Shown: piece after piece, positions 13,878 through 50,983 of the stretch
Position numbering within the stretch: the stretch's first letter is position 1
Layout: each line of letters opens with the position of its first letter
Source: a virus
IMG/VR virus record: IMGVR_UViG_3300044707_000344
Span: 1-53,481 of that record
Direction: 5' to 3' (one strand)
DNA: 53,481 bases
The notes under the pieces: model-generated
The model's database searches: none
Told to the model about the DNA's origin: nothing
The model's input: the letters and a program-made list of their open reading frames with translations, nothing else
Position numbers and translations under genes: made by a program

Positions 13878-14185
13878 GTGTCTCGCCGACGCGGAGGTTC
13901 ATCTTCGCTTTGGCGGGGCACTTGAAGATGACGGTCGGCGAACTGTGCGAGCGAATGGATTCTCGCGAGTTGTCCGAGTGGATGGCTTACACGCGGTACT
14001 TCCAGGCATTGCCAGATCCGTGGAGACAGACAGGGCTCGAGGTGAGTGCGATGCTGGCACCGTACTCCGCAAAAGGCAAGGCACCGAGTGCCGAGGACTT
14101 CAACCCGATTGAGCATCCGCCGCAGCACGAGGATCAGATGCTCGCACAGATACGAATGCTGCAGTCGGCGCTAGGAACTGGCTGA
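13866..14185 (+). CDS. Frameshift extension of the tail chaperone (T-like part)
   Basis: This open frame in the -1 frame continues from the end of the chaperone gene and ends at 14185. It encodes SPTRRFIFALAGHLKMTVGELCERM then ELSEWMAYTRYFQ, a pattern very like the extended GT products of other siphoviruses. An in-frame ATG (13928) would give a truncated protein lacking part of the first helix, so a -1 frameshift near 13866-13872 is more likely. The G run suits slippage, but it is not a textbook heptamer. The last base is shared with the start of the tape measure gene (TGATG). Confidence 0.7.
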
Positions 14186-17100
14186 TGGCGAATATTCTCG
14201 GACTCGCGCTCAAGGTTAGCGGCGACGCCAGCGGGCTGGCGAAGTCACTCACGCCTGTCGATCGTGCGCTCGACAACCTCGGCAAGCAGGCCGAAAAGGC
14301 CACGGCTGTGTTCCAGCCGTTCGCTGAGAAGACGGCGGCAGCGGGCAAAGCTCAAGAGGAGTTCGCGGCGAAGTTCGAGTCGCTTGCCCAGCAGTTGCGA
14401 AACGGCGTTGTCGCGCCCAATGAGTACGCTGCCGCATTTGGGCAGTTGACCGAAGAGGCGAAGGCGGCGGCGGCGGCTTTCCAAGAGGGGCTGCAAATCA
14501 CGCAGCAGAATCAAACTGCTGATCAAGCAAGAGCGGCTAGTCTTGAGCGGCTCAACGAACTGCTGAAGATGGGTGCAATAGACGCCCGCAACTTTGGCCT
14601 TGAGTCAGCCAAGCTTTCTGAAGGATCGGACAGCACTGCCCTGGATCGCTTCACCGAAGCGATTGCCCCGCTGCGAGCGGCGTTTGAAGGCGGTGCCTTG
14701 TCTGCTGAACGCTTCGCAGAGCAGTCGCGGGAAATTGCTGCAGCGATCAGCGGATCAACGCCAACAGCAGAGCGGCAGGCAACGGCGATCCTTGAGCTAC
14801 GCGATCGCTTTGAAGCTGGGCGAATTTCTATTGAGCAGTACCGTGAAGAGTTTTCACGCATTCAGTCTGGCGACATTGCAACAACATTTGAGGTGCAGGT
14901 CGTCGGAGTTCGCGAGGGCGTTGAGGCGAGCAACGAACTGCGAGCCTCGTTAGCTCAACTGACTGACACGCAGATTACCGCAGCGTTGCAAATCGCTGGT
15001 GTCGAGGAACTGGACGATCTGCGGCAACAGTTTGCTGGCGTTGACGGTACGCAGATCGATGCGGTCCTCAAGGTTCTCGGCGTCGATTCGATTGATGCCG
15101 CACGCGAACGGTTGATCGCCCTGGGTGCTTTGCAGATCGAGCCAAAGCTGCAGGCGATCGGGTTTGAGAACATCGACGCTGCTCAATCAGCGATTGAGTC
15201 ACTAAGTGATCGCAGCGTCACGGCCACGCTTGAGTTTCTTGGGGCCGGGACTATCAGCGATGCGGCAGAAAGGCTGGCAGCACTCGACGGCACCACCGTC
15301 GAAGCGTTTCTGCAGGCAACTGGGTTTGAGTCAATAGATGCCGCCCAGGCCAAGCTTGGTGAGTTGAAAGACGTAGACGTGGCGGCGACGCTACAGCTAC
15401 TTGGCGTAGACACGATTGATGCCGCTAGGAATAGGCTTGTTGCGCTGGGCGAAGTACAAATTCAGCCAAAGCTGCAAGCCATTGGATTTGACTCCATTGA
15501 CGCTGCTCAATCAGCGATTGAGTCACTAAGTGATCGCAGCGTCACGGCCACGCTTGAGTTCTTAGGGACAGACAGCATCGACGATGCACGCGAGCGACTT
15601 GGCGTGATTGACGGCACGACCGTCGAGGCGTTCTTGAGAGCCAGCGGATTCGACTCGATTGACGCTGCACAAGCGAAGCTGGCAGAACTTCAGAGCGTAG
15701 ATGTTGCTGCCACGTTGACGGTGCTTGGCGTGGACACAATAGACGAAGCCCGGCAGCGGCTGGCGTCGATTTCTACCGTAGACATTGAGCCGGTTCTGCG
15801 GCTGCTTGGCGTTGATTCAATTGCTGATGCACGGCAGCAGCTTGCTGCTGTAAACGGCACGGAGATTGACGCGCAGCTTCGCGTGCTTGGCGTAGACGGC
15901 ATTGAGTCCGCAAAGGCACTGCTGGCCAGCGTCGAAGGCAAGAATGTCGACCTCATTGCCAAGACGCTCGGCCTTGATTCTGTTTTGAGCCTCACGCAGG
16001 CGATTGACGCATCCGAAAGCAAGACCGTCACTTTCGACGTTGCCGGAAACGCCGATGAAGAAACGAAGCGCATTGCGGAGCTTGTGACAGAGCAAGACGC
16101 CTATCAGGCTGCCATCGCCGAAGGGCTGCGTGTCACCCGCGAGGTTCGCACGGCAGAAGAACGGCGGGCAGCAGAGCTTGAAAAAATCGAGTCGCTGCTC
16201 GCGCGCGGTGCGATTTCGGAAGAGACTGCCGGGCGTGCTCGGGACAAGGCGACAGGGTCAGTAGAAGCGGCGGCTAGGGCCGAGGCTGAATCGCAGAAGG
16301 CTCGCGAAAAACTCCTGCAAGAAGGGGCGAGACTTACGGAGCAGTTTGCTTCGGAAGAGGAAAAACGAGCAAAGACAATTCAGCAGATTGATGATCTGCT
16401 AAAGGCGGGAGTGATCTCGGAGGAAACATACGCCAAAGCCAGGGGGCAGGCGACCGGCGAAGCGGACAAGGCGGCCGAAGCGGCGAGCAAGTATCAGCAG
16501 GTGATTGAGGACGGGCTACGTGTTACGGCCTCAGTGGCGACTGAGGAAGAGCGGCGAGCGACAGAGCTTGAGAAGCTGGAGAGCCTTCTATCGCAAGGTG
16601 CGATTTCTCAGGAGACGTTCGTCCGTGCGTCAGAGCGTGCCACTGGCGTCGAGAAAGAGCGTGCTGACGCTGCCGCTTCTGCGGCTCGCATCATCGCCGC
16701 GAACCTGACTCCGCAGGAAAAGTACGACCAGCAGATTCAAGAACTCACGCAGCATCTGGACGCCGGCCGTCTGACGCAAGAGCAGTTCAATCGGGCTGCA
16801 CAGAAGGCGAAGTCGGACCTCGACGGCGTCGGCTCGGAAGCAGCGAAGACCGACAAAAACATTGAGCGGCTCAACAAAAACGTCAGCATCCTCGCACAGA
16901 TTGAAATCGGCCGCTTGGTCTTCGACGGTGTGCGTGCCCTCGGCAACGCATTCACGAGCGTGACGAGCCAGATCACCAGCCTGGTGGGCTCTGTCAACTC
17001 GTCGCTCGACACGCTCAACGACTTCTCCGCAAGGACGGGCATCGGCGTCGAGGCGTTGCAGGGCTACGCCGTCGCCGCGAAGCTGGCCGGCGTGGACACG

Positions 17101-19428
17101 GAGGCATTCGGGACGTCGATCCAGCGATTGGCCGTCAACATCGGCAAGGCGACGCCTGGCGACGCTCTCGACAAGTCGCTCCGAAACATCAACTTGTCGG
17201 TGCAGGAGCTGCGTGCCCTGTCGCCAGAGCAGCAGTTTTCCGCGATTGGCCAGGCGATATCGCAGCTGCCGACGGCGGCGGATCGTGCTGCCGCTGCGGT
17301 GGAGGTGTTCGGCAAGCAAGGGGCGGCCCTGGCTCCGTTGTTCCGCGAAGGTGCTGACAGCATCGAGGAGTTGCGTGCTCGAGCCGAGCGGCTTGGCATC
17401 ATCGTCAACGAGACGCAGATCGAGAACGTCGCGGCAATGAACGATGGGTTCGACCTCGTGTCGAAGACTGTCGAGGGCATCATCGGCCAGGTGGTTGGCA
17501 ATCTTGCCCCTGCCGTGACTACCGTCACTGATGAGTTCCTTCGATTCGTCGAGGGCTTCGCAGGTGCCGAGGGGAATGGCGGCACCGGAATCGCCAACGC
17601 TATAACGGACGTGCTGCTACAAGGTGCTGACTACCTCGCGGGCGTTTTTGATTCATTCGTTGAAAACTTCGACGGTTTTGTGGTTGGGCTAAAAAGCTCT
17701 GCCGAAGTATTCGCCGCTGTGGGCAATGCGTTCACAGCAGCAGGCGAATCGCTCCGCGTCATATTCAATGCGTTTGAGATTTTCGTAAACGGAAGCCTCG
17801 GATTGACCGGCAGGCTGCTAGAGCAATTCGGGAAACTGTTCTCGACAGACGTGCAGGAGTTTGGCAAAGGGCTGGCCATCCAATCCGAAGCCGCGATGCA
17901 GCAAAACGTCGCAGAACTGCAGGACGCCGCCTCCAACGCAGCCAAGGCTGCCACGCAGGTCATTTACGGTGGCGAATCATCTGCCGGCGCTGCCGGCAAG
18001 GGTGCAGCAACGGAGTTCGTCGACGCCTTCGCGGCACGGATTCAGCAGGAGCGATCTCCGCAGTTCCAAATCGAAACCAACATTGAGAAAACGCGAGAGC
18101 GTTTCGATTCGTTCTTCGGCGGCATCGTCGACCAAAGCAGCGTCATCACTGATGCCATGCGTGGATTTGAGGCGGCCGTCGCAGACGTGCAAGATCCGCT
18201 GAAGCTAAACGAGGAAGAGATCGCCCGCATCAAGGCGGCTCAAGACAAGGTCAACGAGGCCATCACCAAGGAGCAGGCGCGGCGTCAAGAAGTGGCTGAT
18301 GCCGCCGCCAAGCAGGCCGACGCGGACGCAAAGCGAATCGAGAGCCTGACGAAGCCCAACGACGCTCAGTCGAAGCTGGCAGAGGATCTCGCAGCCGTTG
18401 AGCGTGAGCAGGTTCGCGTACAGGAGCAGCAAGCGGCAGCGCGTGCTGCCCAAGATACTGCCTCCGCAGACGCTGCCACTGCGAGGCTGGCACAGCTTGA
18501 CCAGCTGCAGGCGAAGCTGCAAGACACGCAAGCCGCCTCGGAGCAAGGCTTCTCGGACGGCTTTGTCAAAGCGTTTGAAGCGACCAACAAAAGCATTCGC
18601 GACCTTGTAGACAAAGCCGAGGTCAAATCCCTTGTTGGCGTTCCTGACGCAGTAGGGCGGGCTGCGGCAATTGCCGCCGACAATCTCCAGCAGTCAATCG
18701 ACACGCTGCAAGAAAAGGTCAAGGCTGGGATTCTCACGAAAGAATCCTACGACCAAGAGGTTGCCAGGCAGAGAGAGGTATTTGCTGATCGACTTGCTGG
18801 TGCGCAGCGAGTGGAAGAGTTTCTTGCCGCGCAGCTTGACGAGAGGCAGCGTGCTGAAATTCAGTTCCAAGACACGCTTGAACAGAGAAAAATCCAAGCA
18901 GCGGAAAATGTAAAGGCCATACAGGACAGAATCACTGCGGAACAAGAAGCAGTCCAGAACGCTCGCAATACCGGCGACCTCAAGGCTGCGAAGGAAGGAG
19001 CCGACAGGCTCAAGCAGCTTCGGCAGGCAGAGAAGATCGAGAAAGGCATCGCCGCCGGCCGGATAAACTTTCAGCAGCAGGCCGCCGGCGGCAATCAGCA
19101 GTTCGGTGCCGCGATTGCCCAGCAGCAGAGGGCCGCACAGTCGCAGCAGCGGATGCTGGATTCTGCGAACGACGCTATCGCGGCAACTGCGAGGGCCGGT
19201 GCAGAGCTTGCCCGCCGAGCGGAGCTTGCCCGTCCCGTGCAGGGGCCGGTGGCGACTGCCGACATTCGCACCGCCGAGGGTGCAAAGCTCGTGCTCGGGC
19301 TCGGCGCTCAGGCTCAAGACCCGCAGCTGATCGAGGCTCGCCTGCAGACGAAGCAACTGGCGGGTATTCGGACGGCAATCACTAATGCCGTGGCGGGCTA
19401 CCTCAACACGCCAGCGGAGATTTTCTGA
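14185..19428 (+). CDS. Tape measure protein
   Basis: This 1747-residue protein sets the tail length and is the longest gene here. The N-terminus (LALKVSGDASGLAKSL) is typical of tape measures. Residues about 272-622 are 13 tandem 27-residue repeats, and 635-885 hold three or four LExLLxxGxIS-type helical modules. Around residues 910-1010 a hydrophobic/Gly-rich part (GRLVFDGVRALGNAFTSVTSQIT, then ARTGIGVEALQGYAVAAKLAGVD) matches the conserved tape-measure domain. The remainder is coiled coil. Using about 0.15 nm per residue gives a tail near 260 nm, a rough estimate. No peptidase domain is obvious. Confidence 0.93.
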   Translation: MANILGLALKVSGDASGLAKSLTPVDRALDNLGKQAEKATAVFQPFAEKTAAAGKAQEEFAAKFESLAQQLRNGVVAPNEYAAAFGQLTEEAKAAAAAFQEGLQITQQNQTADQARAASLERLNELLKMGAIDARNFGLESAKLSEGSDSTALDRFTEAIAPLRAAFEGGALSAERFAEQSREIAAAISGSTPTAERQATAILELRDRFEAGRISIEQYREEFSRIQSGDIATTFEVQVVGVREGVEASNELRASLAQLTDTQITAALQIAGVEELDDLRQQFAGVDGTQIDAVLKVLGVDSIDAARERLIALGALQIEPKLQAIGFENIDAAQSAIESLSDRSVTATLEFLGAGTISDAAERLAALDGTTVEAFLQATGFESIDAAQAKLGELKDVDVAATLQLLGVDTIDAARNRLVALGEVQIQPKLQAIGFDSIDAAQSAIESLSDRSVTATLEFLGTDSIDDARERLGVIDGTTVEAFLRASGFDSIDAAQAKLAELQSVDVAATLTVLGVDTIDEARQRLASISTVDIEPVLRLLGVDSIADARQQLAAVNGTEIDAQLRVLGVDGIESAKALLASVEGKNVDLIAKTLGLDSVLSLTQAIDASESKTVTFDVAGNADEETKRIAELVTEQDAYQAAIAEGLRVTREVRTAEERRAAELEKIESLLARGAISEETAGRARDKATGSVEAAARAEAESQKAREKLLQEGARLTEQFASEEEKRAKTIQQIDDLLKAGVISEETYAKARGQATGEADKAAEAASKYQQVIEDGLRVTASVATEEERRATELEKLESLLSQGAISQETFVRASERATGVEKERADAAASAARIIAANLTPQEKYDQQIQELTQHLDAGRLTQEQFNRAAQKAKSDLDGVGSEAAKTDKNIERLNKNVSILAQIEIGRLVFDGVRALGNAFTSVTSQITSLVGSVNSSLDTLNDFSARTGIGVEALQGYAVAAKLAGVDTEAFGTSIQRLAVNIGKATPGDALDKSLRNINLSVQELRALSPEQQFSAIGQAISQLPTAADRAAAAVEVFGKQGAALAPLFREGADSIEELRARAERLGIIVNETQIENVAAMNDGFDLVSKTVEGIIGQVVGNLAPAVTTVTDEFLRFVEGFAGAEGNGGTGIANAITDVLLQGADYLAGVFDSFVENFDGFVVGLKSSAEVFAAVGNAFTAAGESLRVIFNAFEIFVNGSLGLTGRLLEQFGKLFSTDVQEFGKGLAIQSEAAMQQNVAELQDAASNAAKAATQVIYGGESSAGAAGKGAATEFVDAFAARIQQERSPQFQIETNIEKTRERFDSFFGGIVDQSSVITDAMRGFEAAVADVQDPLKLNEEEIARIKAAQDKVNEAITKEQARRQEVADAAAKQADADAKRIESLTKPNDAQSKLAEDLAAVEREQVRVQEQQAAARAAQDTASADAATARLAQLDQLQAKLQDTQAASEQGFSDGFVKAFEATNKSIRDLVDKAEVKSLVGVPDAVGRAAAIAADNLQQSIDTLQEKVKAGILTKESYDQEVARQREVFADRLAGAQRVEEFLAAQLDERQRAEIQFQDTLEQRKIQAAENVKAIQDRITAEQEAVQNARNTGDLKAAKEGADRLKQLRQAEKIEKGIAAGRINFQQQAAGGNQQFGAAIAQQQRAAQSQQRMLDSANDAIAATARAGAELARRAELARPVQGPVATADIRTAEGAKLVLGLGAQAQDPQLIEARLQTKQLAGIRTAITNAVAGYLNTPAEIF
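14998..16050 (+). repeat. Thirteen 81-bp repeats in the tape measure gene
   Basis: Each unit encodes 27 residues of the kind GxDSIDAAxxxLxxLxxxxV(x)xxLxxL. Units 2-5 and 6-9 are near copies, a higher-order period of 324 bases. A 62-base segment at 15175-15236 is identical to 15499-15560. The units diverge towards both ends of the array. Confidence 0.9.
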
Positions 19429-20344: not shown

Positions 20345-20725
20345 ATGGCAGACACGACATACGAGCAGTTGCCGGCCGAGCTTGATCTCGCGTTCGTCAA
20401 AGGTGACGAATTCGGGATGGTCATCTCGATGGACGGCACGGACTTGACCGGCCACACCTACGACAGCCGCATCTACGCACTCACGAGCGTCGCTGCTGGC
20501 GGCGGGCTCGGAGCCGGGGTGACGGTTGCCGCGGGTGGCACCGTGGTGGCGTTCACCGTCACGCAGGTCAATCTCACCGCCGGCCAGGTCAACGTCTCAC
20601 TCTCCGAGGTGCAGACGGACCAGCTGGCGGCGACGGGCGTGTACCGCTGGTGGTTCAAGACGATCACGCCCGGCAACGTGACGCGGACCTATCTGGCCGG
20701 TGACGTGAGCGTGAGGGTTCCCTGA
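20345..20725 (+). CDS. Tail-fibre cassette 1, small BppU-like protein
   Basis: This 126-residue protein (YEQLPAELDLAFVKGDEFGMVI, then QVNVSLSEVQTDQL and GVYRWWFKT) resembles the short N-terminal domain of baseplate upper/fibre-anchoring proteins. It has a clear paralogue at 49502-49825, with the shared pattern YxQLPxxLxL, GxVNVSL, then YRW. It overlaps the next fibre gene by one base (TGATG), suggesting they work together. Confidence 0.68.
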   Translation: MADTTYEQLPAELDLAFVKGDEFGMVISMDGTDLTGHTYDSRIYALTSVAAGGGLGAGVTVAAGGTVVAFTVTQVNLTAGQVNVSLSEVQTDQLAATGVYRWWFKTITPGNVTRTYLAGDVSVRVP

Positions 20726-22170
20726 TGGCCATCAGCGTCTCGATCCTTGGCGAGACGGGCGTCAGTGTCTCCGTCAGCGGCAACACGGGTATCTCCGTGG
20801 TCGCCAGCGGCGGCATCGGACCCGCTGGATTCCTGACCGTGCCAGGCACGGCGACGAATGCGTTCGGCACGTTCCAGCTGGTGCCCGGACCTGGCATCAC
20901 GGTCAGCACGACGAGCGGACAGTTCACGATTGCGAGCTACGACACGGCGGTCGTGGCGGGGTTCTCCCCGGTGCAGTCCGTGGCCGGGAGAGTCGGGGCA
21001 ATCGTCCTCCAAGCGAGTGACGTCACGGCTGGCACGTTCGCGATTGCTCGCATCCCGACGATCTCGTACACGGCTCTGAGCAGCGTTCCGACGACGTTTG
21101 CCCCGTCGGCTCACACGCATTCGACCACGGACGTGGTGGCATTCACGGCGGCGGCGTCTGCCGCAGCACCCGTGCAGTCGGTGCAGTCGAGGACGGGTGC
21201 CGTCGTCATCACACGGGCAGACCTCACCGCCGCCGCTGAGGTGCACACGCACTCGACCAGCGACATCGTCGGGCTCACGGCGTCGTTCTCGCAAGTCGGC
21301 CACACGCACGCAGCCGGCGACATCCAGAGCGGGACGCTCGACATCGCCCGCATCCCGACCATCGGGTACACCGCCCTGTCTGGCGTTCCATCGTCGTTCT
21401 CTCCCTCGGCACATACGCACTCCACGACCGACATCGTGTCGTTCACTGCGGCGGCGTCGGCAGCAGCCCCTGTGCAGTCGGTGGCGGGCCGCACGGGGGC
21501 GATCAGCCTGGCCGCGGCAGACGTCTCGGGTCTGGCGAGCGTGGCCACCAGCGGCTCGTACACGAGCCTAAGCAACGTGCCGCTGACGTTCGCACCGGCT
21601 ACGCACACGCACTCCACCAGCGACATCTCCGGGTATGCCGGGCTGCCGGCGCAGGCTGGCTACGCTGGGCCGCTGGTCACGGACGGCACGAATGCGACGT
21701 GGACGAGTCGCTATTCCATCGTGAGTCCCGTGCTCGTGCAGGGCGCGGGCATGGCGTTCACCCGTGACACGTCCGCCGGCTCTATCACGATTGCTTTCGC
21801 CGGCGGCACGTCCGGCCTGGCTGTTGGCTCGGCAACGCCGCAGCCGCTCGGCACGGCAGCGGCCGGTTCGTCCGCGAACGCCAGCCGCGAGGATCACGTC
21901 CACGGGTTGCCGACGGTCGGGGACATCACTGCCGCTGCCGCGGTTCACACCCATGCCGCCGCCGACATCACGAGTGGCACGCTCGACGTCGCTCGGATGC
22001 CGAGCCACGTGAGCACCCTCAACGGGCTCACGGGAACGCTGACTATTGCGGCGGGGAGTAATGTGACGGTCAGCACCGCCGGCTCGACGATCACGATTGC
22101 GTCGGGTGGTGGAAGCGGTGGCTCTGCCGCCCCGGCTGCACGTTCTCTGCATTTTGTCTTCCGTACTTGA
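20725..22170 (+). CDS. Tail fibre protein, cassette 1
   Basis: This 481-residue fibre-like protein is rich in Ser, Thr, Ala and Gly. Repeats of SAHTHSTTDIVSFTAAASAAAPVQ and TSGSYTSLSNVP are typical of trimeric phage fibres with His-rich metal-binding shafts (HTHS). The C-terminus (SGLAVGSATPQPLGTAAAGSSANASREDHVHG, then a TLNGLTGTLTIAAGSNVTV motif) resembles tail fibre tip modules. A paralogous shorter fibre is at 49825-50973. It likely binds the host surface. Confidence 0.8.
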   Translation: MAISVSILGETGVSVSVSGNTGISVVASGGIGPAGFLTVPGTATNAFGTFQLVPGPGITVSTTSGQFTIASYDTAVVAGFSPVQSVAGRVGAIVLQASDVTAGTFAIARIPTISYTALSSVPTTFAPSAHTHSTTDVVAFTAAASAAAPVQSVQSRTGAVVITRADLTAAAEVHTHSTSDIVGLTASFSQVGHTHAAGDIQSGTLDIARIPTIGYTALSGVPSSFSPSAHTHSTTDIVSFTAAASAAAPVQSVAGRTGAISLAAADVSGLASVATSGSYTSLSNVPLTFAPATHTHSTSDISGYAGLPAQAGYAGPLVTDGTNATWTSRYSIVSPVLVQGAGMAFTRDTSAGSITIAFAGGTSGLAVGSATPQPLGTAAAGSSANASREDHVHGLPTVGDITAAAAVHTHAAADITSGTLDVARMPSHVSTLNGLTGTLTIAAGSNVTVSTAGSTITIASGGGSGGSAAPAARSLHFVFRT

Positions 22171-22178
22171 GGTGAAGG

Positions 22179-22553
22179 ATGGCTGCTCCGAATGTTGCCG
22201 GTACCGCGACCGAGGTGTATCTGCGGACAGTGACGATCCCTGTCGGCACCGCCACCGGGTCGAGCGCTACGCTGGTTCTCGCCAACGGGTCCGCTAGTTC
22301 CGCCGTCCTCGAGATCAACTCGCTTACCGTCAATAACGTAGACGGAGTGAACTCTGCCGACGTGAGCGTGCTGCGATTCGTCGGCACGAACTCCACGCAG
22401 CTGTATACGACGATCTCGGTCCCGGCCGACGCCTCGCTCCGCGTGGTCGACGGCACCGCGAAGCTGGTGCTGCCCGAGGATCACACGATTCGCGTCTTCG
22501 CGAACGCTACCGGCGACCTGACGGTCGACGTGGCCTACGTCGAATACAAGTGA
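22179..22553 (+). CDS. Fibre-associated protein, cassette 1
   Basis: This 124-residue beta-rich protein (VAGTATEVYLRTVTIPVGTATGSSATLVLANGS) has the same place and general character as 50984-51367 in the second cassette. Both follow a long fibre gene and lack enzymatic motifs. It may cap or stabilise the fibre or form a minor virion protein. The family is not recognised. Confidence 0.6.
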   Translation: MAAPNVAGTATEVYLRTVTIPVGTATGSSATLVLANGSASSAVLEINSLTVNNVDGVNSADVSVLRFVGTNSTQLYTTISVPADASLRVVDGTAKLVLPEDHTIRVFANATGDLTVDVAYVEYK

Positions 22554-22565
22554 CGTAGGTGACGC

Positions 22566-23027
22566 ATGGAGCGGATCTCATTCACACGGCCTGCCGCGGC
22601 GAGGATCGCTCGTGCCGTTAGGGTCGTTGAGAACGCCCGGCCTGGTGGGCAGCCGCTAGAGACGCAGCGGCAGGACACGCTCGCGAAAGCGCGGGTATTT
22701 CGCGTCGCCACCTACACGGGCGCGTGGGCTATCGGTTCGGCGAAGACCGTGACGTTCAAGAATCGGACGTCGACTCCGAATACCGTCAGTGCGACGAATC
22801 TGTTCTTCCCCGTCACGTCGACTGCGGCGGGTAGCAGGGACTGCGCCGTCGCGAAAGACGGCACGGCGTGGTTTTTGATTGACGTCGTTCAGCAGACAAC
22901 GGCCGTGATTGTTCTCACGGGCGTCAGCCTCGGGACGGCGGGGCTGCAATTCACGCGAGCGTCTATCACTGTCGCCAGCACGGCGACGGAGAGCGTGTCG
23001 ACCATTACCACGACGGCCTGCACATGA
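22566..23027 (+). CDS. Hypothetical virion-associated protein
   Basis: This 153-residue protein has a basic N-terminal helix (AAARIARAVRVVENARPGG) followed by beta-rich sequence (TVTFKNRTSTPNTVSATNLFFP, WFLIDVVQQTTAVIVLTGV). The N-terminal pattern resembles small phage structural proteins found between fibre genes. Its stop overlaps the next start (ATGA). No family is recognised. Confidence 0.6.
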   Translation: MERISFTRPAAARIARAVRVVENARPGGQPLETQRQDTLAKARVFRVATYTGAWAIGSAKTVTFKNRTSTPNTVSATNLFFPVTSTAAGSRDCAVAKDGTAWFLIDVVQQTTAVIVLTGVSLGTAGLQFTRASITVASTATESVSTITTTACT

Positions 23028-23863
23028 CGCCCATCGCCACGAAGAACGGCAGCATCATCGTCAAGGACGGCAGCATCGCGGAGGGCTGCGAGTGCTGCGG
23101 TGGGTGGTATTGCGACCAGCAGTACGGCGCGTGCTGCAATGGGACTCAGTGCGAAAACAAATACAAGTGCGACTGCGCAAGCACGAGCACGTTCAAAAAC
23201 GGTGTGCCCTGCGGCGCGAGCGCGTGCTATTGCGTGTTTCCAACACTTGAGCCGCTGCCGGGCGCGATTACTAGCATTGACGATCCGATGATTGGCCGCC
23301 GGCTGCCTATCTACTGCACTCTCACCGACGGCCGGCACTCATATTCTGGGAACTATACAAACATTCAAACCTTTTTCCCTGACGCCGCAAGCCTGCTTGC
23401 CGTGTATGGATCAGAAGCACAAACTTCGTTCACCGAAGCGCCCGCACTAGGTGCCAGTGGGTCTAATTACGGTGTCTCAGTAGAAGGAATCTGGAAGAAA
23501 TATCTTGCCACTCCGTTCACGCTATTCCCGCCATTCGCTTCGCCGTGCTGCGGAGATCTCACGGATGGCAACGCGTACGTACTAGCCCAACTGATATGCA
23601 ATAAACAGACGGGACAGTGGGCGATGTCGTGGTCGACTGGAATGACTTGCTTTAGGTGGACGCGTGATCCTTTCTATGGCACATACTCGTACCAGACAAA
23701 CCCCACGTTGCTCTACTCCGACAGCGGCACGATTTTGATACCGGCCGCGTCAAACGGACTTCCGGAGGAGGGAACGCACTCGCTTGCGTCGGGTGCGGGG
23801 TATGGAACTCCGTGCGAGAATTACATACTCAACGCATCTATCACAATCTCGCATTCTGCGTAG
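23024..23863 (+). CDS. Cysteine-rich protein A
   Basis: This 279-residue protein has an N-terminal cysteine-rich knot of about 70 residues (GCECCGGWYCDQQYGACC and CKCDC-type spacing) followed by a larger domain (VFPTLEPLPGAI, RRLPIYCTL, CCGDLTDG, ILIPAASNGLPEEGTH). A close paralogue follows immediately at 23870. There is no signal peptide. The cysteine pattern suggests disulphide- or metal-stabilised folds that could act outside the cell as a tail tip or adhesin. Family unknown. Confidence 0.65.
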   Translation: MTPIATKNGSIIVKDGSIAEGCECCGGWYCDQQYGACCNGTQCENKYKCDCASTSTFKNGVPCGASACYCVFPTLEPLPGAITSIDDPMIGRRLPIYCTLTDGRHSYSGNYTNIQTFFPDAASLLAVYGSEAQTSFTEAPALGASGSNYGVSVEGIWKKYLATPFTLFPPFASPCCGDLTDGNAYVLAQLICNKQTGQWAMSWSTGMTCFRWTRDPFYGTYSYQTNPTLLYSDSGTILIPAASNGLPEEGTHSLASGAGYGTPCENYILNASITISHSA

Positions 23864-23869
23864 CGACAC

Positions 23870-24730
23870 ATGGCCTGCCTCCAAACATCAGCCGGCAATG
23901 GCGGACCGGGCATTCGTCCGACCTACGCCACCGAAGCCGCCTGTCTCGAAGCCTGCAAAGAAGGCGCGTGCTGCGAAGGCACGACGTGCAGCGTCAAGCC
24001 GCAGTGCCAGTGCCAGGGAACGGGGAAGACGTTCAAGGGGGTGGGGACGACGTGCCAAAGCAGCCCTTGCATCTGCGTGTTTCCAACGCTCAACCCGCTT
24101 CCGGGCGCGACAGCGTCGAACGATTATCCTCTTGTTGGAAAGCGACTTCCTGTTTACTGCACTATCTCAGACGGCGCTCGGACATTTAGTGGAAATTATG
24201 CGCCTACTTACCCTGGCGGCGGTGGCGTTCAAGCAATACTAGCTGCATACGGAAATGAGTATCAAGGTGCCTCCACGAATGAACCGGCGGGTGATGCTGT
24301 CGGCGGGATAGTGAAGTTTTGCGTGACTTCTGATTGGCTTCGCTATCTAGATTACCCGGCTCCATCGCAACTCCCATTTGGAACACAGCAGCCAAAGTGC
24401 TGCGGAGATTCTCCAGACAACACCGCGAGGGTCGTGTGCTGTCTTTTCTGTAATGAACAATCGGGATCGTGGACGCTGGAGTGGTCTGTTGAACTTCAAT
24501 GTCGCCTGTGGGGGGCGGCCATCGGCGGCAATCAAACCTATCTGAGACCCAGCAGCTTGTATTTTGGAGCCAACGGAAGCATTTCTATCTCCGCAGCGTC
24601 AAACGGACTCCCCCAAGCAGGGACGTATCGTTTTTTTGACGGAACTGCGAATTATTTGAACAACAACACTCCATGCCGCGGCTACATTACGGACGCCTCG
24701 CTAACGATTGCCCATAACCCACTCCCTTGA
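23870..24730 (+). CDS. Cysteine-rich protein B (paralogue of A)
   Basis: This 286-residue protein shares with its upstream neighbour a Cys-rich head (ATEAACLEACKEGACCEGTTC), a VFPTLNPLPGA motif, a KRLPVYCTISDGARTFSGNY motif, KCCGDSPDN and ISISAASNGLPQAGTY. Overall it is a tandem duplication that has diverged. The cysteine-rich head is built differently from A. Likely a virion surface component in the tail region; the exact role is not known. Confidence 0.65.
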   Translation: MACLQTSAGNGGPGIRPTYATEAACLEACKEGACCEGTTCSVKPQCQCQGTGKTFKGVGTTCQSSPCICVFPTLNPLPGATASNDYPLVGKRLPVYCTISDGARTFSGNYAPTYPGGGGVQAILAAYGNEYQGASTNEPAGDAVGGIVKFCVTSDWLRYLDYPAPSQLPFGTQQPKCCGDSPDNTARVVCCLFCNEQSGSWTLEWSVELQCRLWGAAIGGNQTYLRPSSLYFGANGSISISAASNGLPQAGTYRFFDGTANYLNNNTPCRGYITDASLTIAHNPLP

Positions 24731-25161
24731 TTACCTGCCACCGCTCTAGCCTTGAGCAGCGATGCGCCGAGCGAGGCTACACGCTCGGCGAGGTCATGTC
24801 GTGCGTCGTTTCCCAGGACGGCGACCAGTGGATGATAGACGTTGACCACGCGGCATATCCTCGGTCGCCCAAGCCTGGCCACGAGCAGCCGCCGCCCCAG
24901 CCCGTTGGCCACGGCCCCGGCACCGAGCTATCCAAGCTCTTGAAACGCTTTGGCATCGAGCCGACGCCGACGTGCTCCTGCCGAGCCAAGGCGGCAGAGA
25001 TGGACGCATGGGGATGCGACGAGTGCAGCAAGCCGGAACGGATCGACGAGGTCGTGGCGGTCATGCGCGCAGAGGCACAGGCACGCGGCCTGCCGTTCCT
25101 CGACGCCGCCGGGAGGCTCCTCGTGCGACGGGCGATAGCCAACGCCCGCCGTCGTGCTTGA
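24727..25161 (+). CDS. Hypothetical protein with a CSC/CDEC cysteine pattern
   Basis: This 144-residue protein starts at a TTG overlapping the previous TGA. It has RGYTLGEVMSCVVSQDGDQWMIDVDHAAYP, then a Pro-rich linker and LKRFGIEPTPTCSCRAKAAEMDAWGCDEC, with four cysteines that may bind a metal, and a final helix (LVRRAIANARR). I recall this arrangement near phage fibre genes, but the function is unknown. Confidence 0.65.
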   Translation: MITCHRSSLEQRCAERGYTLGEVMSCVVSQDGDQWMIDVDHAAYPRSPKPGHEQPPPQPVGHGPGTELSKLLKRFGIEPTPTCSCRAKAAEMDAWGCDECSKPERIDEVVAVMRAEAQARGLPFLDAAGRLLVRRAIANARRRA

Positions 25162-25200
25162 CGCGCCTGTCACGCTGTAGGCGTCACAGGAGCGACGCCC

Positions 25201-25428
25201 ATGCCACGGCCAAGGAAGCAGCCGAAGCCCAAGCCTGACGCCGTCATCCTGCCCCCGGAGCTCGACGATGACGACGAAGAAGGCGGCAGTGTCATCCCCG
25301 ACGATGACGGCTGGATCACCCTCAAGCAGGGCAGCGGAGATTCTGGCGCTGGCACAGGCGTCGGGCCAGACGAATTGGCTCACCGCCCTACCGCCAAGCG
25401 AAAAAGAACTCCTCGTCGAAATCCGTGA
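25201..25428 (+). CDS. Small acidic/basic hypothetical protein
   Basis: This 75-residue protein has a good ribosome site (AGGAG) before the ATG. Its N-terminus is basic (RPRKQPKPKP), then acidic (ELDDDDEEGG), with GWITL in the middle. It overlaps the next gene in another frame over about 160 bases. The second half in this frame looks less natural than the overlapping gene, so it may be a frameshifted or shortened version. Confidence 0.45.
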   Translation: MPRPRKQPKPKPDAVILPPELDDDDEEGGSVIPDDDGWITLKQGSGDSGAGTGVGPDELAHRPTAKRKRTPRRNP

Positions 25429-25567
25429 CCGCTGGCGTGCGACTCGCGAGATGACGGGCGTGTCGGCCGCATCGCTGGCGAAGACGCTGATTTCCCAGAT
25501 GCCAGAGACACGATTCCCCTGCAAGAAGGGACTCTCGGAATGGCTGCTCCACGCCGACGCGCCGTAG
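25268..25567 (+). CDS. Hypothetical HTH-like protein upstream of the phosphoesterase
   Basis: This 99-residue protein has a natural-looking second half: AAEILALAQASGQTNWLTALPPSEKELLVEIRDRW, then a possible helix-turn-helix (GVSAASLAKTLISQMPETRFPCKKGLSEWL). Genes with this pattern often precede phage metallophosphoesterases. GGAG lies upstream of the ATG. An internal ATG at 25304 is also possible. It overlaps the phosphoesterase start by 28 bases. Confidence 0.65.
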   Translation: MTTKKAAVSSPTMTAGSPSSRAAEILALAQASGQTNWLTALPPSEKELLVEIRDRWRATREMTGVSAASLAKTLISQMPETRFPCKKGLSEWLLHADAP

Positions 25568-26739
25568 AGATCCTGGCGGCTGCGTCCGCTGGTTCCTCGC
25601 CGAAGCCAGCACCGGATGCCGAGCAAGTCACGCAGCGGCGTGATGGAGACGTGCTCGAGGCACGGTCCACGAGCCGTCGAATCAAGACGGTGGAGGATCT
25701 GCTGCGGCACATCGAGGCGGACCTTGAACGCTACGAGGTCGCCGCGAGCGAGGCAACGAAATGGGAGTGTGCGACTGCTGGAGATGACGGCGAGCCGATC
25801 GTCACCGAGTTGCATCGTGTGTTCGTGCGTCTCAAGCCACGCGGCGGCCCGACGACGAAAGAGATCGTCGAGGCGATGATTGCTGGTGCGTCGGGCGGCA
25901 TTCGCCGGCCCTTGACCAAAGCTGTCAAGGCACAGAAACGCGACGGCCTGTGGCAAGTCTTGCCGGTGAGCGACACGCACCTCGGAAACTACGCCTGGAG
26001 CCAGACGACCGGAGCGGGCGATTGGGATCTGTCTATTGCGGAGCGTGTCATCGGCCAGGCTGCTGGTGAGTTGCTCGCGGTGGGGGACACGCACAAGCCG
26101 GCCCGCAGGACGATTGCGTTCCTCGGCGACCTCTTCCACTACGATCGGGCCGAGCGTGCCGAGACATCGAGCGGCACTCCGCTAGAGCGAGACGGGCGGC
26201 TGCAGAAGATGATCCAGGTTGGTGCGGCCGTTTTGCTTGGCATCGTTGAGCGATCCGCCGAAACCTGCCCGACGGACGTCGTGCTCGTGCAAGGCAACCA
26301 CGATGAAATGCTGTCGTGGGCATTCCATCGCATCCTGATTGAGCGATTCCGCAACGATCGCCGCGTGAAGATCGACGAGCGGTACACGGGCCGCAAGTAC
26401 CTTGCGAGCGGCAAAACGCTGCTCGGCTTCTGCCACGGCCACAAGGCAAAGCGTCGGCTCCCGCAGCTGATGGCACTGGAGGCTGCGGAGGAGTGGGCTC
26501 GCTGCCCGTACCGCGAGTGGCACACCGGGCACTATCACTCGTCGGCTGCGGAGTGGTCGAGACCGATTGAGACGCTCGACGGCGTGCTGACGCGGGTCAG
26601 CCCGTCGCTCTGTGCTCCTGACGATTGGCACGCCAGCCACGGATTCTTGAACACTAGACAGTGCATGGAGACTTTCATCTACGCCGCCGAGGGCGGACTC
26701 ACAGCCATGCACGTTTCGACTCCGAAAGGGACACGATGA
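25540..26739 (+). CDS. Calcineurin-like metallophosphoesterase
   Basis: This 399-residue protein has the complete metallophosphoesterase signature: VSDTHLGN (D-x-H), FLGDLFHYD (GD), VQGNHDEMLS (GNHD/E), CHGHKAK and GHYHS. An N-terminal region of about 130 residues rich in charged helices precedes the domain. Such enzymes hydrolyse phosphodiesters of DNA, RNA or nucleotides. Its neighbours (an HTH-like gene before, an Nmad1-type protein after) suggest a role in phage DNA metabolism or modification. The stop overlaps the Nmad1 start. Confidence 0.88.
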   Translation: MAAPRRRAVEILAAASAGSSPKPAPDAEQVTQRRDGDVLEARSTSRRIKTVEDLLRHIEADLERYEVAASEATKWECATAGDDGEPIVTELHRVFVRLKPRGGPTTKEIVEAMIAGASGGIRRPLTKAVKAQKRDGLWQVLPVSDTHLGNYAWSQTTGAGDWDLSIAERVIGQAAGELLAVGDTHKPARRTIAFLGDLFHYDRAERAETSSGTPLERDGRLQKMIQVGAAVLLGIVERSAETCPTDVVLVQGNHDEMLSWAFHRILIERFRNDRRVKIDERYTGRKYLASGKTLLGFCHGHKAKRRLPQLMALEAAEEWARCPYREWHTGHYHSSAAEWSRPIETLDGVLTRVSPSLCAPDDWHASHGFLNTRQCMETFIYAAEGGLTAMHVSTPKGTR

Positions 26740-27257
26740 CCACCACGCTCGACGAATCCGTATCCGCACTCCGCTCTGCCGTCGAAGCTCGACTCGCAGG
26801 CACACCTGCCAATGATCCCAAAATGCAGGGCTATCGCCTGCCCGGTGACGGCATCCTCAACGCCAGCCCCGAGACCTACGCGGAGTGGACGCCGCCAGCG
26901 TTTGCTTCTGCGAGAGTCGCGGACGTGCATCCGACGAGCCAAGCGTTCTTTGATCTGTGCGATGCCATCAAGGAAATGCACCGGAGGAAGAGCGCCGATT
27001 ACGGGTGTCCGAGCGGCACGGACCCGCTGGCGAACATCCGCAGCGGGGCGAAGTTTGTCGGCATCCCGTCGTGGAAGGGTGCGATGGTGCGGCTGTCTGA
27101 CAAGGTGACGCGGCTCGCCGCGTACAACGCGACAGGCCGGCTGGAGAACGAATCGCTCGAGGACAACCTTTTCGACCTGGCGTCCTACGCACTGCTGGCA
27201 TTGCTCTTGCACCGCGAGGAACAGCAGTGTGCCGCGACCGATGAGGTCGTCGGCTGA
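26736..27257 (+). CDS. Nucleotide modification associated domain 1 (DUF1599) protein
   Basis: This 173-residue protein shows the Nmad1/DUF1599 pattern: IKEMHRRKSADYGCPSGTDPLANIRSGAKFVGIPSWKGAMVRLSDKVTRLAAY, then NESLEDNLFDLASYALLALLL. These proteins are commonly encoded next to phage DNA-modification enzymes, and related folds hydrolyse nucleotides. The ATG overlaps the phosphoesterase stop (ATGA). A role in supplying or clearing modified nucleotides is inference. Confidence 0.85.
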   Translation: MTTTLDESVSALRSAVEARLAGTPANDPKMQGYRLPGDGILNASPETYAEWTPPAFASARVADVHPTSQAFFDLCDAIKEMHRRKSADYGCPSGTDPLANIRSGAKFVGIPSWKGAMVRLSDKVTRLAAYNATGRLENESLEDNLFDLASYALLALLLHREEQQCAATDEVVG

Positions 27258-27323
27258 GCCGGGCGGCGGGTTGCAGTTCGTGCGTGTTTCTCCCTTTCCA
27301 CGCGCGACTCCCCGCCTGCTCGG
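27258..27323. other. Gap between convergent genes
   Basis: This 66-base interval separates the convergent stops of the Nmad1-type gene and the integrase. It is GC-rich with a T-rich patch (GTGTTTCTCCCTTTCC). I find no strong perfect hairpin, so the terminators here are weak or Rho-dependent. Confidence 0.35.
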
Positions 27324-28181
27324 TCAGCCGATGGCAGGAAGCACATCGCACGGCGGAGGCTCGCGGTCCGTCATACGGCGGTCGAGGTACCATCGCTGCG
27401 TGATCCTCGGGCTGGAGTGGTCGAGCAGCTTCGTCGCATCGCCGCCGAGAGCTGCGTAGTGACTCGCCGCCGAGCGGCGCAGCTGGTGGAAGCCGCTGCC
27501 CCTGCCGTGGCCGAGGCCCGCACGGGCTACGATGTCCTTGTATTTCGACCACAGGTACGTCGGATGCTGCGGCCATTCAAGCAGCTTTCCGGTGCCGCAG
27601 GCCAGACGCACGGCTTCGCACGTCGCCTCGGATAGCTGATACACGCGGTCGCGCTTCCCGCCCTTCCGGTACTCGGCGCGCACCGACAGGAACGGCGGCG
27701 AGAAGTCCTCGGGCAGACACGATAGCACCGCGCCGATCCGTTCGGCCGTCTCCCACAGCACGCTCAGGAGTGCTGTGTACCAGATGCCAGCACGCACGGC
27801 CCCGACCGTGCCGCGTGTTGCGGCGGCGGCCCGCATGAGGGCTTGCAGCTGCTCGACTGACCATGCCGTCGGCACTCGCTCTGGCAGCGGAGCAGGAGGA
27901 ACGCATGGACGATCTTTTAGCACGCCGCGGTCGGCCGCGCACCGCCACAGCGACAACAACTGCGTGCGTTCTTTCTCGGCTGTGTACGGACTGCGGATCG
28001 ACGCTCGATGCTCAAGGTATCGGCTGATCGTCAGGTCTGTCAGGTCGTCGAGCGTCGGTATGTAGCCGAGCCACTTTGCAAACGCGCGGATCGTGCAACC
28101 GTACAGCCTCGTCGTGTTTGCCGAGCGTCCTCGCAGACGCAGCGGCCGGTAGAAGTCGTCAAAGAAGTTCTGAAGTGTCAT
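27324..28181 (-). CDS. int: Tyrosine recombinase (integrase)
   Basis: This 285-residue site-specific recombinase is the only clear gene on the minus strand. It has an N-terminal SAM-like DNA-binding domain (residues 1-90). The catalytic domain holds the expected residues: Arg148 (ETAERIG), a Lys in YRKGGKR (173/176), HQLRR (His222, Arg225), His245 (LLDHSSP) and the nucleophile Tyr255 (TQRWYLD). It would integrate and excise the genome with the small excisionase-like gene facing it. It converges with the phage structural block and diverges from the HTH genes. Confidence 0.92.
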   Translation of the reverse strand: MTLQNFFDDFYRPLRLRGRSANTTRLYGCTIRAFAKWLGYIPTLDDLTDLTISRYLEHRASIRSPYTAEKERTQLLSLWRCAADRGVLKDRPCVPPAPLPERVPTAWSVEQLQALMRAAAATRGTVGAVRAGIWYTALLSVLWETAERIGAVLSCLPEDFSPPFLSVRAEYRKGGKRDRVYQLSEATCEAVRLACGTGKLLEWPQHPTYLWSKYKDIVARAGLGHGRGSGFHQLRRSAASHYAALGGDATKLLDHSSPRITQRWYLDRRMTDREPPPCDVLPAIG

Positions 28182-48426: not shown

Positions 48427-48720
48427 ATGCACGCTCTGTGGCACTGGCTGCTCTATGTGCTGACGTGGTCATCCGCCGATCCCGGAGTGATTGACGCGGA
48501 GCGTGCCCGCACGGCCGGCAGCGTCAACGTCGCCTACGCTGGCCTCGCACTGGAGCCGACGAAGCCGCAGGACGTGCCGGCTGCCATCGAGCCTCCGAGG
48601 CCATGCCAGCAGTGCAGCGGCACGGGCCGCATCTACCGCCCCGATGGTGGATGGGTGAAGTGTCCGTGCGGTGCGTGCTCGGCTGATCGCTGCCAGGCGA
48701 AAGGCAAGGCGACGCGATGA
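48427..48720 (+). CDS. DnaJ-type zinc-finger-like small protein
   Basis: This 97-residue protein has an N-terminal hydrophobic stretch (ALWHWLLYVLTW), then PCQQCSGTGRIYRPDGGWVKCPCGAC, a single DnaJ-type CxxCxGTG zinc finger. It overlaps the lectin-like tail protein gene that follows. Confidence 0.68.
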   Translation: MHALWHWLLYVLTWSSADPGVIDAERARTAGSVNVAYAGLALEPTKPQDVPAAIEPPRPCQQCSGTGRIYRPDGGWVKCPCGACSADRCQAKGKATR

Positions 48721-49490
48721 CTCGACCGCGTGCGGGATATGTCGGATTCACGCGGACGCCGACCTCGACGGCGGCGTCTGGGATCTGGACGCTGCGAGAA
48801 GCAGAGGCGAGCAAGCGTGCGGCAGCGTGGCCAGACACGATGCCGGATCTCTCTAGCGACCCGTTCTTCTCCAACGTGGTTCTACTTCTCCACGGCGAGT
48901 CGATGGTCGACTCGTCCAATGCAGCTCGCACGCTCACGGCAAGCGGAGCGACGATCAGCACGGCGCAAAAGAAATTTGGCTCATCGTCGATTTCCATCGG
49001 CAGCGGCCAGTACGTCAGCCTGCCAGGTGCCACAGCGTTCAATATGTCTGGCGACTTCACGCTGGAGTGGTTCCACTATTTGACCAGTGCGACGGCACAG
49101 GGCTGGATCATCGGCGGCAATGCCAATGCCAGCGGGTATTTCATGCTGGGCCTAAACCTCACAGGCTCGCAGCAGTTGTGGGTCGGTCAGGCGAACGTCG
49201 GCTGGCCGGTGCAGTTTGGCAGCGTCCCGCTCGCCGCGAACACATGGCAGCACGTCGCGATCAGTCGCAGCGGCTCAAGCAACAGGCTGTATATCGACGG
49301 CACGCTCGTCGGCTCTGCGATTACTGATTCGACTAGCTGGGTCGCGAATCCGACTCAGATATGGATCGGCTCACAATCAGGCGGCGTGTCGATGGCGGGA
49401 TACCTCGACGAGTTCCGCTGGACCGTGGGGGCGGCGCGGCACACGGGCAGCACCATCACCGTCCCAACAGCGGCATACCCAGACAGCTAG
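48717..49490 (+). CDS. LamG/lectin-like tail protein
   Basis: This 257-residue protein has a phage fibre-type N-terminus (GIWTLREAEASKRAAAWPD, then PFFSNVVLLLHGE), followed by a concanavalin A-like (LamG) jelly-roll: DFTLEWFHYL, WQHVAISRSGSSNRLYIDGTLVGSA and GYLDEFRWTVGAAR. Such domains bind sugars. It starts the second tail-fibre cassette. It likely binds a cell-surface glycan. Confidence 0.83.
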   Translation: MTRPRAGYVGFTRTPTSTAASGIWTLREAEASKRAAAWPDTMPDLSSDPFFSNVVLLLHGESMVDSSNAARTLTASGATISTAQKKFGSSSISIGSGQYVSLPGATAFNMSGDFTLEWFHYLTSATAQGWIIGGNANASGYFMLGLNLTGSQQLWVGQANVGWPVQFGSVPLAANTWQHVAISRSGSSNRLYIDGTLVGSAITDSTSWVANPTQIWIGSQSGGVSMAGYLDEFRWTVGAARHTGSTITVPTAAYPDS

Positions 49491-49501
49491 TGGAGGTAGA
49501 G

Positions 49502-49825
49502 ATGTCGTCCTACGATCAACTGCCGGGGCAGCTCAACCTCTCCGTGCGTGGCGGCGACCGCCTGTCGGCAGAGATCGACTTCAACCCGATTTCGCTCACG
49601 GGCTTCACGATGGCGGCGACGATCTCGTCGCTCGTCGGCGGCAACACGCTCGCCGCGATGACGACGACGCTGACTGACGCGGCGGCCGGAAAGGTCAACG
49701 TCTCATTGACCGGCACGCAGACGGTCGACCTGCCGCGGGGCACGTACCGCTGGGATCTGACAGCGACCGACGCCGCCAGCGTGCGGCGTAGCTACCTCAC
49801 TGGATTCGTCGAGGTCACTCGCTGA
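49502..49825 (+). CDS. Tail-fibre cassette 2, small BppU-like protein
   Basis: This 107-residue protein is a paralogue of 20345-20725: YDQLPGQLNLSVRGGDRL, FTMAATISSL, GKVNVSLTGTQTVDL and YRWDLTATDA, ending with a RRSYLTGFVEV strand. GGAGGTAG precedes the ATG, and its end overlaps the fibre gene that follows. Confidence 0.7.
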   Translation: MSSYDQLPGQLNLSVRGGDRLSAEIDFNPISLTGFTMAATISSLVGGNTLAAMTTTLTDAAAGKVNVSLTGTQTVDLPRGTYRWDLTATDAASVRRSYLTGFVEVTR

Positions 49826-50973
49826 TGGGCATCACAGTCTCCACAAGCCCGCAGCAGGTCACGGCCTCGGTCAGCGAGGACAAGATCACGGCGGCCGTGA
49901 GTTCGCAGGCGGTCACAGCGACCGTGCAGGCGGGCTTCGGTGCCAGCGGTGCTGCCGGCTCTCCGGGTGCGTCAGGATCGAGCGGCGTCGTCACTGTGTC
50001 GGCACCGCTCACCAACAGCGGCACCAGCTCCGCTGCGGCGCTTGCCCTGTCTGTCGGGTCTGGCCTGGACGTTTCCGCGGGATCGCTCGTCGTGTCTGCC
50101 GTGCCTCTGTCGTCGCTCGCTCAAGGCGGTGCGACTGCCGGCCAGGTCGTGCGATGGAACGGCACGGCGTGGGCAGTCGGCAACGTGACGGCTGGCAGCA
50201 CGGCGTGGGATGACATTCTTGGCAAGCCGACTTTCGCGACGGTGGCCACTACGGGCAGCTACGCCGACCTGACGAACAAGCCGACCATCCCGGCCGCGTA
50301 CTCGCTTCCGGTGGCGACGAGCAGCGTCCTCGGTGGCGTGAAGCAAGGAAGCAACGTCACTATCGGCGGTGACGGCACGATCAGCGTATCGGCACCTGTG
50401 ACATCGCTGCCGTACTCGTCCATCACAGGCACGCCGTCTCTGGCAACCGTGGCAACGAGCGGCAGCTATGCCGACCTCACTGGGAAGCCGACGCTCGGCA
50501 CGATGGCATCGCAGGATGGCACGTTCAGCGGCACGTCGAGCGGCACGAACACGGGCGACCAGACGATCACGCTCACCGGAGACGTCACAGGCAGCGGCAC
50601 TGGCTCGTTCTCGGCCACGCTCTCGAGCACGGGCGTCTCGGCGGGCACCTACACGAGCGTGACGGTTGACGCGAAGGGGCGCGTGACGGCCGGCTCCTCG
50701 CCGACGGTCGCGTACTCGTCACTCTCGGGAGTGCCATCGACATTCGCTCCGTCAGCACACAAAACATCGCACGCGACGGGTGGCAGTGATGCCCTGACCG
50801 CCAGCGACATCGGTGCGGCGTCGACCAGCCACGCCAGCACGCACGCGAGCGGCGGCAGTGACCCGGTAACGGTTGCGGCGAGTCAGATCACTAGCGGCAC
50901 GCTCGAAGACTCGCGGCTCTCGGCAAAAGCAGCGGCAGCGATGAACCTGTATCTCTGGCAGACATACCGATAG
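49825..50973 (+). CDS. Tail fibre protein, cassette 2
   Basis: This 382-residue fibre is rich in Ser/Thr/Gly. It has a short collagen-like GAAGSPGASGSSG piece, repeated TGSYADLTNKP/TSGSYADLTGKP motifs, SLPYSSITGTPSL, then TNTGDQTITLTGDVTGSGTGSF and HKTSHATGGSDALTASDIG. These are typical phage fibre modules. It is paralogous in layout to 20725-22170 but not in all parts, and shorter. Confidence 0.82.
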   Translation: MGITVSTSPQQVTASVSEDKITAAVSSQAVTATVQAGFGASGAAGSPGASGSSGVVTVSAPLTNSGTSSAAALALSVGSGLDVSAGSLVVSAVPLSSLAQGGATAGQVVRWNGTAWAVGNVTAGSTAWDDILGKPTFATVATTGSYADLTNKPTIPAAYSLPVATSSVLGGVKQGSNVTIGGDGTISVSAPVTSLPYSSITGTPSLATVATSGSYADLTGKPTLGTMASQDGTFSGTSSGTNTGDQTITLTGDVTGSGTGSFSATLSSTGVSAGTYTSVTVDAKGRVTAGSSPTVAYSSLSGVPSTFAPSAHKTSHATGGSDALTASDIGAASTSHASTHASGGSDPVTVAASQITSGTLEDSRLSAKAAAAMNLYLWQTYR

Positions 50974-50983
50974 GAGCTAGAAC

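Follow-up and report, generated by a model that had tools for sequence, protein, structure and literature searches.

The DNA analysed here, IMG/VR virus record IMGVR_UViG_3300044707_000344 over its full 53,481 nucleotides (hereafter the window), belongs to a tailed phage, as judged from PHROGs matches to a terminase, a portal, a head protease, a major head protein and a head-tail adaptor. A tape measure gene (14185-19428, 1747 aa) and a gene for a phage-tail-repeat, fibre-like protein with Pfam and PHROGs matches (20725-22170) are followed, on the same strand and with compact spacing, by two adjacent genes, P1 (23024..23863, plus strand, 279 aa) and P2 (23870..24730, plus strand, 286 aa). Behind this pair come a downstream gene (24727..25161, plus strand, 144 aa), an exonuclease gene assigned by PHROGs (25540-26739), an integrase gene on the minus strand (27324-28181), and then helicase and primase genes. 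The tail-module location proposed in an earlier description made from the letters alone (the sequence-only reading) was confirmed, with tape measure and fibre-like genes upstream of the pair and replication genes downstream. The tape measure has 1747 aa in the window, compared with an ORF of 1255 aa in the near relative L076, and the window gene contains a tandem repeat of 324 bp in 1.8 copies (15140-15737). Just before the terminase gene, 773-2633 holds a TET-associated glycosyltransferase gene (Pfam TAGT, E 2.7e-38) beside a methyltransferase-like gene, and the two may point to glycosylated, hypermodified phage DNA.

P1 consists of head A, a constant anchor (ATKNGSIIVKDGSIAEGCECCGGWYC; 23024..23113, plus strand), a GACC-type cysteine-rich unit (23126..23233, plus strand) and a body, and P2 of a variable N-terminus, head B and a body; the core of head B is the constant segment C2 (YATEAACLEACKEGACCEGTTCSVKPQCQCQGTGKTFKGVGTTC; 23923..24055, plus strand). 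One single BLASTP comparison gave 42% identity between P1 and P2 over 255 aa, and because the match scored 180 bits (E 5e-60) the likeness is not due to chance; a search of the window's own record with P2 returned the P1 and P2 places only. The adjacent, related pair with a shared body was thus correctly recognized, and of the motifs said to be common to both proteins VFPTL.PLPGA, CCGD and ASNGLP are present in each, whereas RLPVYCT is exact in P2 and reads RLPIYCT in P1. The proteins are indeed rich in cysteine, which makes up 6.5% of P1 and 7.0% of P2 (median of 28 further window genes picked by coordinates, 1.05%), and some of these residues may form disulphide bonds. That the two heads are differently built held true for the first ~30 residues (MTPIATKNGSIIVKDG...CECCGGWYC versus MACLQ...TEAACLEACKE) but not for ~residues 31-70, where the GACC unit of P1 is homologous to the head-B unit of P2 in both the BLASTP alignment and the cysteine positions.

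We collected relatives, which come from uncultured phages, from IMG/VR. Scanning with P2 gave 75 loci, a P1 scan a single locus that belongs to the near relative IMGVR_UViG_3300033993_001389, and a DNA pattern derived from the head gave 117 stretches, among them record L141, which has no match to the head-B profile. Merging gene hits with an identical 400-bp core around head B reduced 180 hits to 88 contexts, window included. In most fetched loci the match to P2 covers the head only, and the sequence that follows differs. A profile scan with the P1/P2 body returned no further contig, but it was insensitive and missed a member of this body family in slot 1 of L175, which is 63% identical to P1 (P2 versus P1, 42%).

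The arrangement of the heads is regular across these contexts, with P1 filling slot 1 in the window and P2 slot 2. A slot-1 head (A) upstream of a slot-2 head (B) was found with a regular expression in 81 of 88 contexts, window included, comprising 62 heads of type A1 (ATKN..IIVKDGKLAENCGCCGGWYC), 13 of type A2 (MLGGECS.CCGGWYC) and 6 joined to head B in the same frame; four of the seven contexts in which none was found have under 900 bases upstream. Fusion of slots 1 and 2 in a single reading frame (L104, L153, L062, L063 and L178) means that heads A and B can share one protein. Head B also contains an insertion point after CQC, occupied by a CCGPD-type cysteine-rich unit in 17 of the 88 contexts, and in six contexts the slot-2 gene is bodiless, head B leading directly to the end. 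Median protein identity to the window was 74% for head A (match in 60 of 87 contexts) and 72% for head B (87 of 87), the latter partly by selection since the loci were fetched via head B; head A played no part in the fetching. Where the downstream gene matches, its conservation equals that of the heads (72%, 70 contexts). Lower medians were obtained for the exonuclease (64%, 31 contexts), the tape measure (33%, 22) and the genes starting at 19428 (31%, 22), 20345 (39%, 23), 20725 (52%, 19) and 22566 (46%, 30), while the gene at 22179 reached 98% in only 5 contexts, it being understood that not all contigs of the relatives reach the tape measure-side or exonuclease genes.

The bodies behave in the opposite manner. 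We compared 75 contexts with separate slot genes pairwise by blastn, taking flanks outside both slots and counting pairs only where the DNA is present. Head A gave a match in 2084 of 2775 pairs, head B in 2770 of 2775, the DNA upstream of head A in 1253 of 2346 and the downstream DNA in 1390 of 1830, against 26 of 2775 for body 1 and 68 of 1953 for body 2. In 22 pairs the outer flanks on both sides reach 85% identity or more across 400 bp or more; 16 of these pairs lack a match in either body and none shares both. Two of the remaining pairs share body 2 only, one (window/L001) shares body 1 only, two have a short body-2 match and no body-1 match, and L107/L164 share body 1 and part of body 2. 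The 63 contexts in which both bodies are present gave the same picture: body 1 is common (at least 80% identity over half) to 17 pairs, none of them with a shared body 2 (3 partial matches), and body 2 to 15 pairs, none with a body-1 match. Collapsing on the 400-bp core drops phages alike at slot 2. The lack of pairs sharing both bodies therefore shows that separate change of the slots is possible; it does not show that the two bodies never travel together.

Identical bodies also occur on unlike backgrounds. In L147/L153 and L021/L153 the body is 100% identical, with no match in the upstream 2 kb although at least 2.0 kb is present in each; L091/L145 was considered as another such pair and dropped, L091 having just 103 bases upstream. 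The same body 1 was found under head types A1 and A2 (for example L007/L025 and L131/L136), in a head-type assignment that missed some A2 heads. Compared with L001 and L076, the window is 88-96% identical around the locus and 98% identical in body 1, and body 2 is unrelated. Different bodies between the same flanks, together with the same body on unlike backgrounds, indicate that whole bodies move and that each slot is able to change alone. The heads are constant, their bodies are replaced wholesale and independently, and one body can occur on different heads and backgrounds. The sequence-only reading had pictured a changing head on a shared scaffold, and the relatives reverse this, since heads are constant and bodies unrelated between nearly all of them. 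Its proposal that a probable host-recognition protein changes rapidly by modules is supported, and relatives do vary, which it had named as a test; the change sits in the bodies and not in the heads.

In total, 115 closed body strings fell into 43 families, 22 of them single, by single-linkage clustering at E 1e-4, with slot-1 bodies taken by a strict search expression and P1 and fused-gene bodies counted twice; one 14-member family is joined partly via fused genes and cysteine-rich units. Fused genes aside, about four families, the P1/P2 family included, occur in both slots, one of them through a weak link (L119/L043, 25%). The window, with one body family in both slots, is an uncommon case, and the body shared by P1 and P2 is one family occupying both slots.

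The edges of the exchanged segments are reproducible. When the window was compared by blastn with six relatives, homology was lost at 23108-23120, the end of head A, in four of them (the other two share the body-1 family with the window), regained at 23923-23924, lost again at 24054-24055 in six of six, and regained at 24882-24912. These edges delimit two exchange segments. V1 (23114..23922, plus strand) comprises body 1 and the beginning of the slot-2 gene and has no blastn homology with L008, L013, L011 and L019, all matching on both sides; V2 (24056..24890, plus strand) comprises body 2 and the 5' portion of the downstream gene. Both exchange units cross gene borders. The NPLP-stop end of body 2 (24716..24730, plus strand) overlaps the start codon of the next gene at 24727, which accounts for the NPLP ending, and among closed slot-2 genes ending in PLP or YLP the downstream start was of the CHRS type in 46 of 46. 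The other 35 slot-2 genes are followed by CxxCG-type starts in 28 cases, unclassed starts in 6 and a CHRS start in 1 (L026). At L026:8001-8775 an NPLP-kind slot-2 body ends in another frame shortly before the CHRS-type downstream start, which looks like a frameshift near the end of this body. The downstream gene is itself a chimera, with an N-terminal part of two types that varies with the body-2 type and one constant C-terminal part from GPGTEL (24913) onwards; its product could be a partner or an assembly factor of body 2.

Head B is common to many phages in these datasets, so assemblers might have joined different phages at this sequence and produced the mosaic artificially. Against this, the longest identical head-B run between contexts with unrelated bodies has a median of 23 bp and a maximum of 110 bp; of 3731 pairs, 4 have a run of 99 bp or longer. 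Each of the 16 pairs with homologous outer flanks around two unrelated bodies would need several false joins, and the same gene recurs across datasets (L018/L020/L022/L023, and six copies of the L060 gene). We regard an assembly artefact as very improbable. Mutation of the bodies by a diversity-generating retroelement, reverse-transcribing from a template, would likewise place a hypervariable C-terminal region behind a constant N-terminus. The bodies differ as whole unrelated families rather than by point changes, and RVT_1 was found in 0 of 14 records, window included and some perhaps fragments, by a search that was positive in 3 of 14 control genomes; this explanation can be practically discounted.

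We consider it reasonably probable that the locus encodes two tail adhesins on constant anchors, the bodies of which are exchanged by recombination in short conserved stretches. Each adhesin would carry a short, constant, cysteine-rich N-terminal anchor, head A in slot 1 and head B in slot 2, by which it is probably docked to the tail, and a C-terminal body of mostly ~150-250 aa that probably contacts the host surface. Bodies would be replaced whole and separately per slot, most likely through homologous recombination in three conserved stretches of DNA, namely the end of head A, the 133-bp core of head B and the downstream gene, and such replacement may alter host range. Most near-identical body tracts start where head B ends, ~89-105 bp from GACC, with a few starting elsewhere (3, 66 and 69 bp), and their right ends range from a few bp past the stop codon to kilobases beyond. 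Homologous recombination in flanking conserved DNA gives such a pattern of starts and ends; the clustering of the starts would also be produced by a fixed left site at the head-B end.

A site-specific enzyme, for example the phage tyrosine integrase, could accordingly move the bodies of the same adhesins at the head ends, and edges at the same places against six relatives, the concentration of tract starts at ~89-105 bp, the bodiless slot-2 genes of six contexts and a tyrosine integrase in 13 of 14 records all fit this. The head end is also where homology between phages stops, so that homologous exchange looks alike there, and a site-specific reaction fits less well with the few tracts starting elsewhere and the widely varying right ends. 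Across records the distance between the integrase and head B varies from ~3 kb to over 40 kb, a resolvase-family (serine) recombinase was found in 0 of 14 records, some of them fragments, and known bodies had 0 matches beyond the slots across 746,171 flank bases, a search that silent cassettes of unsampled families would escape. On balance we find site-specific exchange unlikely.

The heads resemble one another more at synonymous sites than neighbouring genes do. Measured at conserved residues, codon identity exceeded the expectation from codon usage by 0.61 in head A (40 sequences), 0.56 in head B (76 sequences, some codons of which are fixed by the head-derived DNA pattern), 0.32 in the downstream gene (48) and 0.19 in the exonuclease (29). 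In matched contexts, with the codon usage of each stretch itself as reference, the excess was 0.56 for head A (8 contexts) and 0.49, 0.25 and 0.24 for head B, the downstream gene and the exonuclease (16 contexts). An RNA element was examined as the cause of the conserved head DNA and rejected: the window head B gave no RNA fold signal (z 0.24), and no Rfam match was found within 22000-27500. In a bolder form of the recombination reading, the DNA of the ~133-bp head-B core and of the head-A end would be kept similar to serve as universal recombination sockets, through which a large phage group would share one open library of unrelated binding domains and combine them independently in two slots, each body bringing along the start of the next gene; this we put forward tentatively, as a doubtful extension.

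The genomic setting of the genes points to receptor-binding proteins. Like modular receptor-binding proteins, P1 and P2 are encoded beside tail genes, and P1/P2-type genes combine a constant N-terminal module with an exchangeable C-terminal one; we draw the assignment from the small constant anchor, the exchangeable body and the place behind tail genes, and the products would accordingly be expected in the virion. Database searches returned no known family. P1 and P2 had no Pfam match up to E 1 and no NCBIfam match up to E 0.1, and in PHROGs P1 had none and P2 three weak matches only, at E 0.095 or worse. At E <= 0.01, 0 of 43 body-family representatives matched Pfam or PHROGs, and the one body family searched against PDB sequences had no match. 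AlphaFold2 models of P2 were poor (mean pLDDT 35.3 from the single sequence and 53.8 from the alignment), and Foldseek, limited by the poor model, gave no match at E <= 0.001. Profile comparisons among three body families, two with few sequences in their profiles, gave probabilities under 1%. As for hosts, head-B and downstream-gene profiles confirmed 0 of 29 and 0 of 111 pattern matches in GTDB genome contigs, and 50,697 GenBank phage records held no match for P2 or the downstream protein.

The integrase suggests a temperate phage, and no body representative resembles a known receptor-binding family; P1 and P2 might then decorate the head, or be variable proteins that the lysogen makes for its surface or for immunity, and lie after the tail genes by chance. 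Their strand and compact spacing are nevertheless shared with the preceding tail genes, and a small constant anchor joined to an exchangeable body is typical of receptor-binding proteins, so we judge such a role improbable and retain the reading as tail adhesins. Far from the tail module, 48717-52560 holds a second structural-looking cluster with a concanavalin A-like lectin (Laminin_G_3), a protein with PHROGs families common to the fibre-like gene at 20725, and a weak RCC1-repeat match. This fibre/lectin-like cluster could be the real receptor-binding apparatus, and for this reason P1 and P2 need not be the sole or main adhesins of the window phage.

The locus offers a natural system in uncultured phages for seeing swaps of attachment proteins, with constant anchors, defined edges and two independent slots. 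The 43 body families, without relatives in Pfam or PHROGs, are candidates for new binding folds, and head A, head B and the GPGTEL gene can serve as sequence markers to collect bodies from metagenomes and link them to hosts. Within the open full-text literature, outside of which most subscription papers lie, no title or abstract start among the matches listed described this locus. The principle of modular receptor-binding loci is already known, and this locus is, on the basis of its sequence, a functionally putative variant of it.

Several known systems invite comparison. Unlike a shufflon or invertible tail-fibre cassette, the locus has no serine resolvase (0 of 14 records, some fragments) and no known body as a silent cassette in the 746,171 flank bases, and unlike a diversity-generating retroelement target it has no reverse transcriptase in the 14 records, some fragments. 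Recombination between conserved motifs of the T-even adhesin gp38 was reportedly described by Tetart et al. in 1998. According to PMC12529663, T-even gp38 adhesins have conserved glycine-rich motifs between hypervariable segments. The alternation of conserved and hypervariable stretches is alike here, whereas our exchange segment is a whole body crossing gene borders, the constant parts are cysteine-rich, there are two separate slots, and P1 and P2 match no phage adhesin family in Pfam, NCBIfam or PHROGs. Receptor-binding proteins of Klebsiella phages (PMC8262889) carry an N-terminal anchor and an exchangeable C-terminal specificity module; phage KP32 encodes a pair of them, of which the second interacts with the first. 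The two-protein, anchor-and-module layout is shared with the present locus; theirs bear depolymerase domains, whereas here the anchors are cysteine-rich and ~30-70 aa long and no body representative has a match in Pfam or PHROGs. In aquatic populations, PMC3909814 reports metaviromic islands of marine phages in which host-recognition genes have a recruiting N-terminus and a variable, under-recruiting C-terminus. This recruiting N-terminus and variable C-terminus in aquatic phage host-recognition genes resemble the P1/P2-type genes, and unlike in those islands, the edges, the independence of the two slots and the co-exchanged start of the next gene are here resolved, through comparison of contigs rather than read recruitment.
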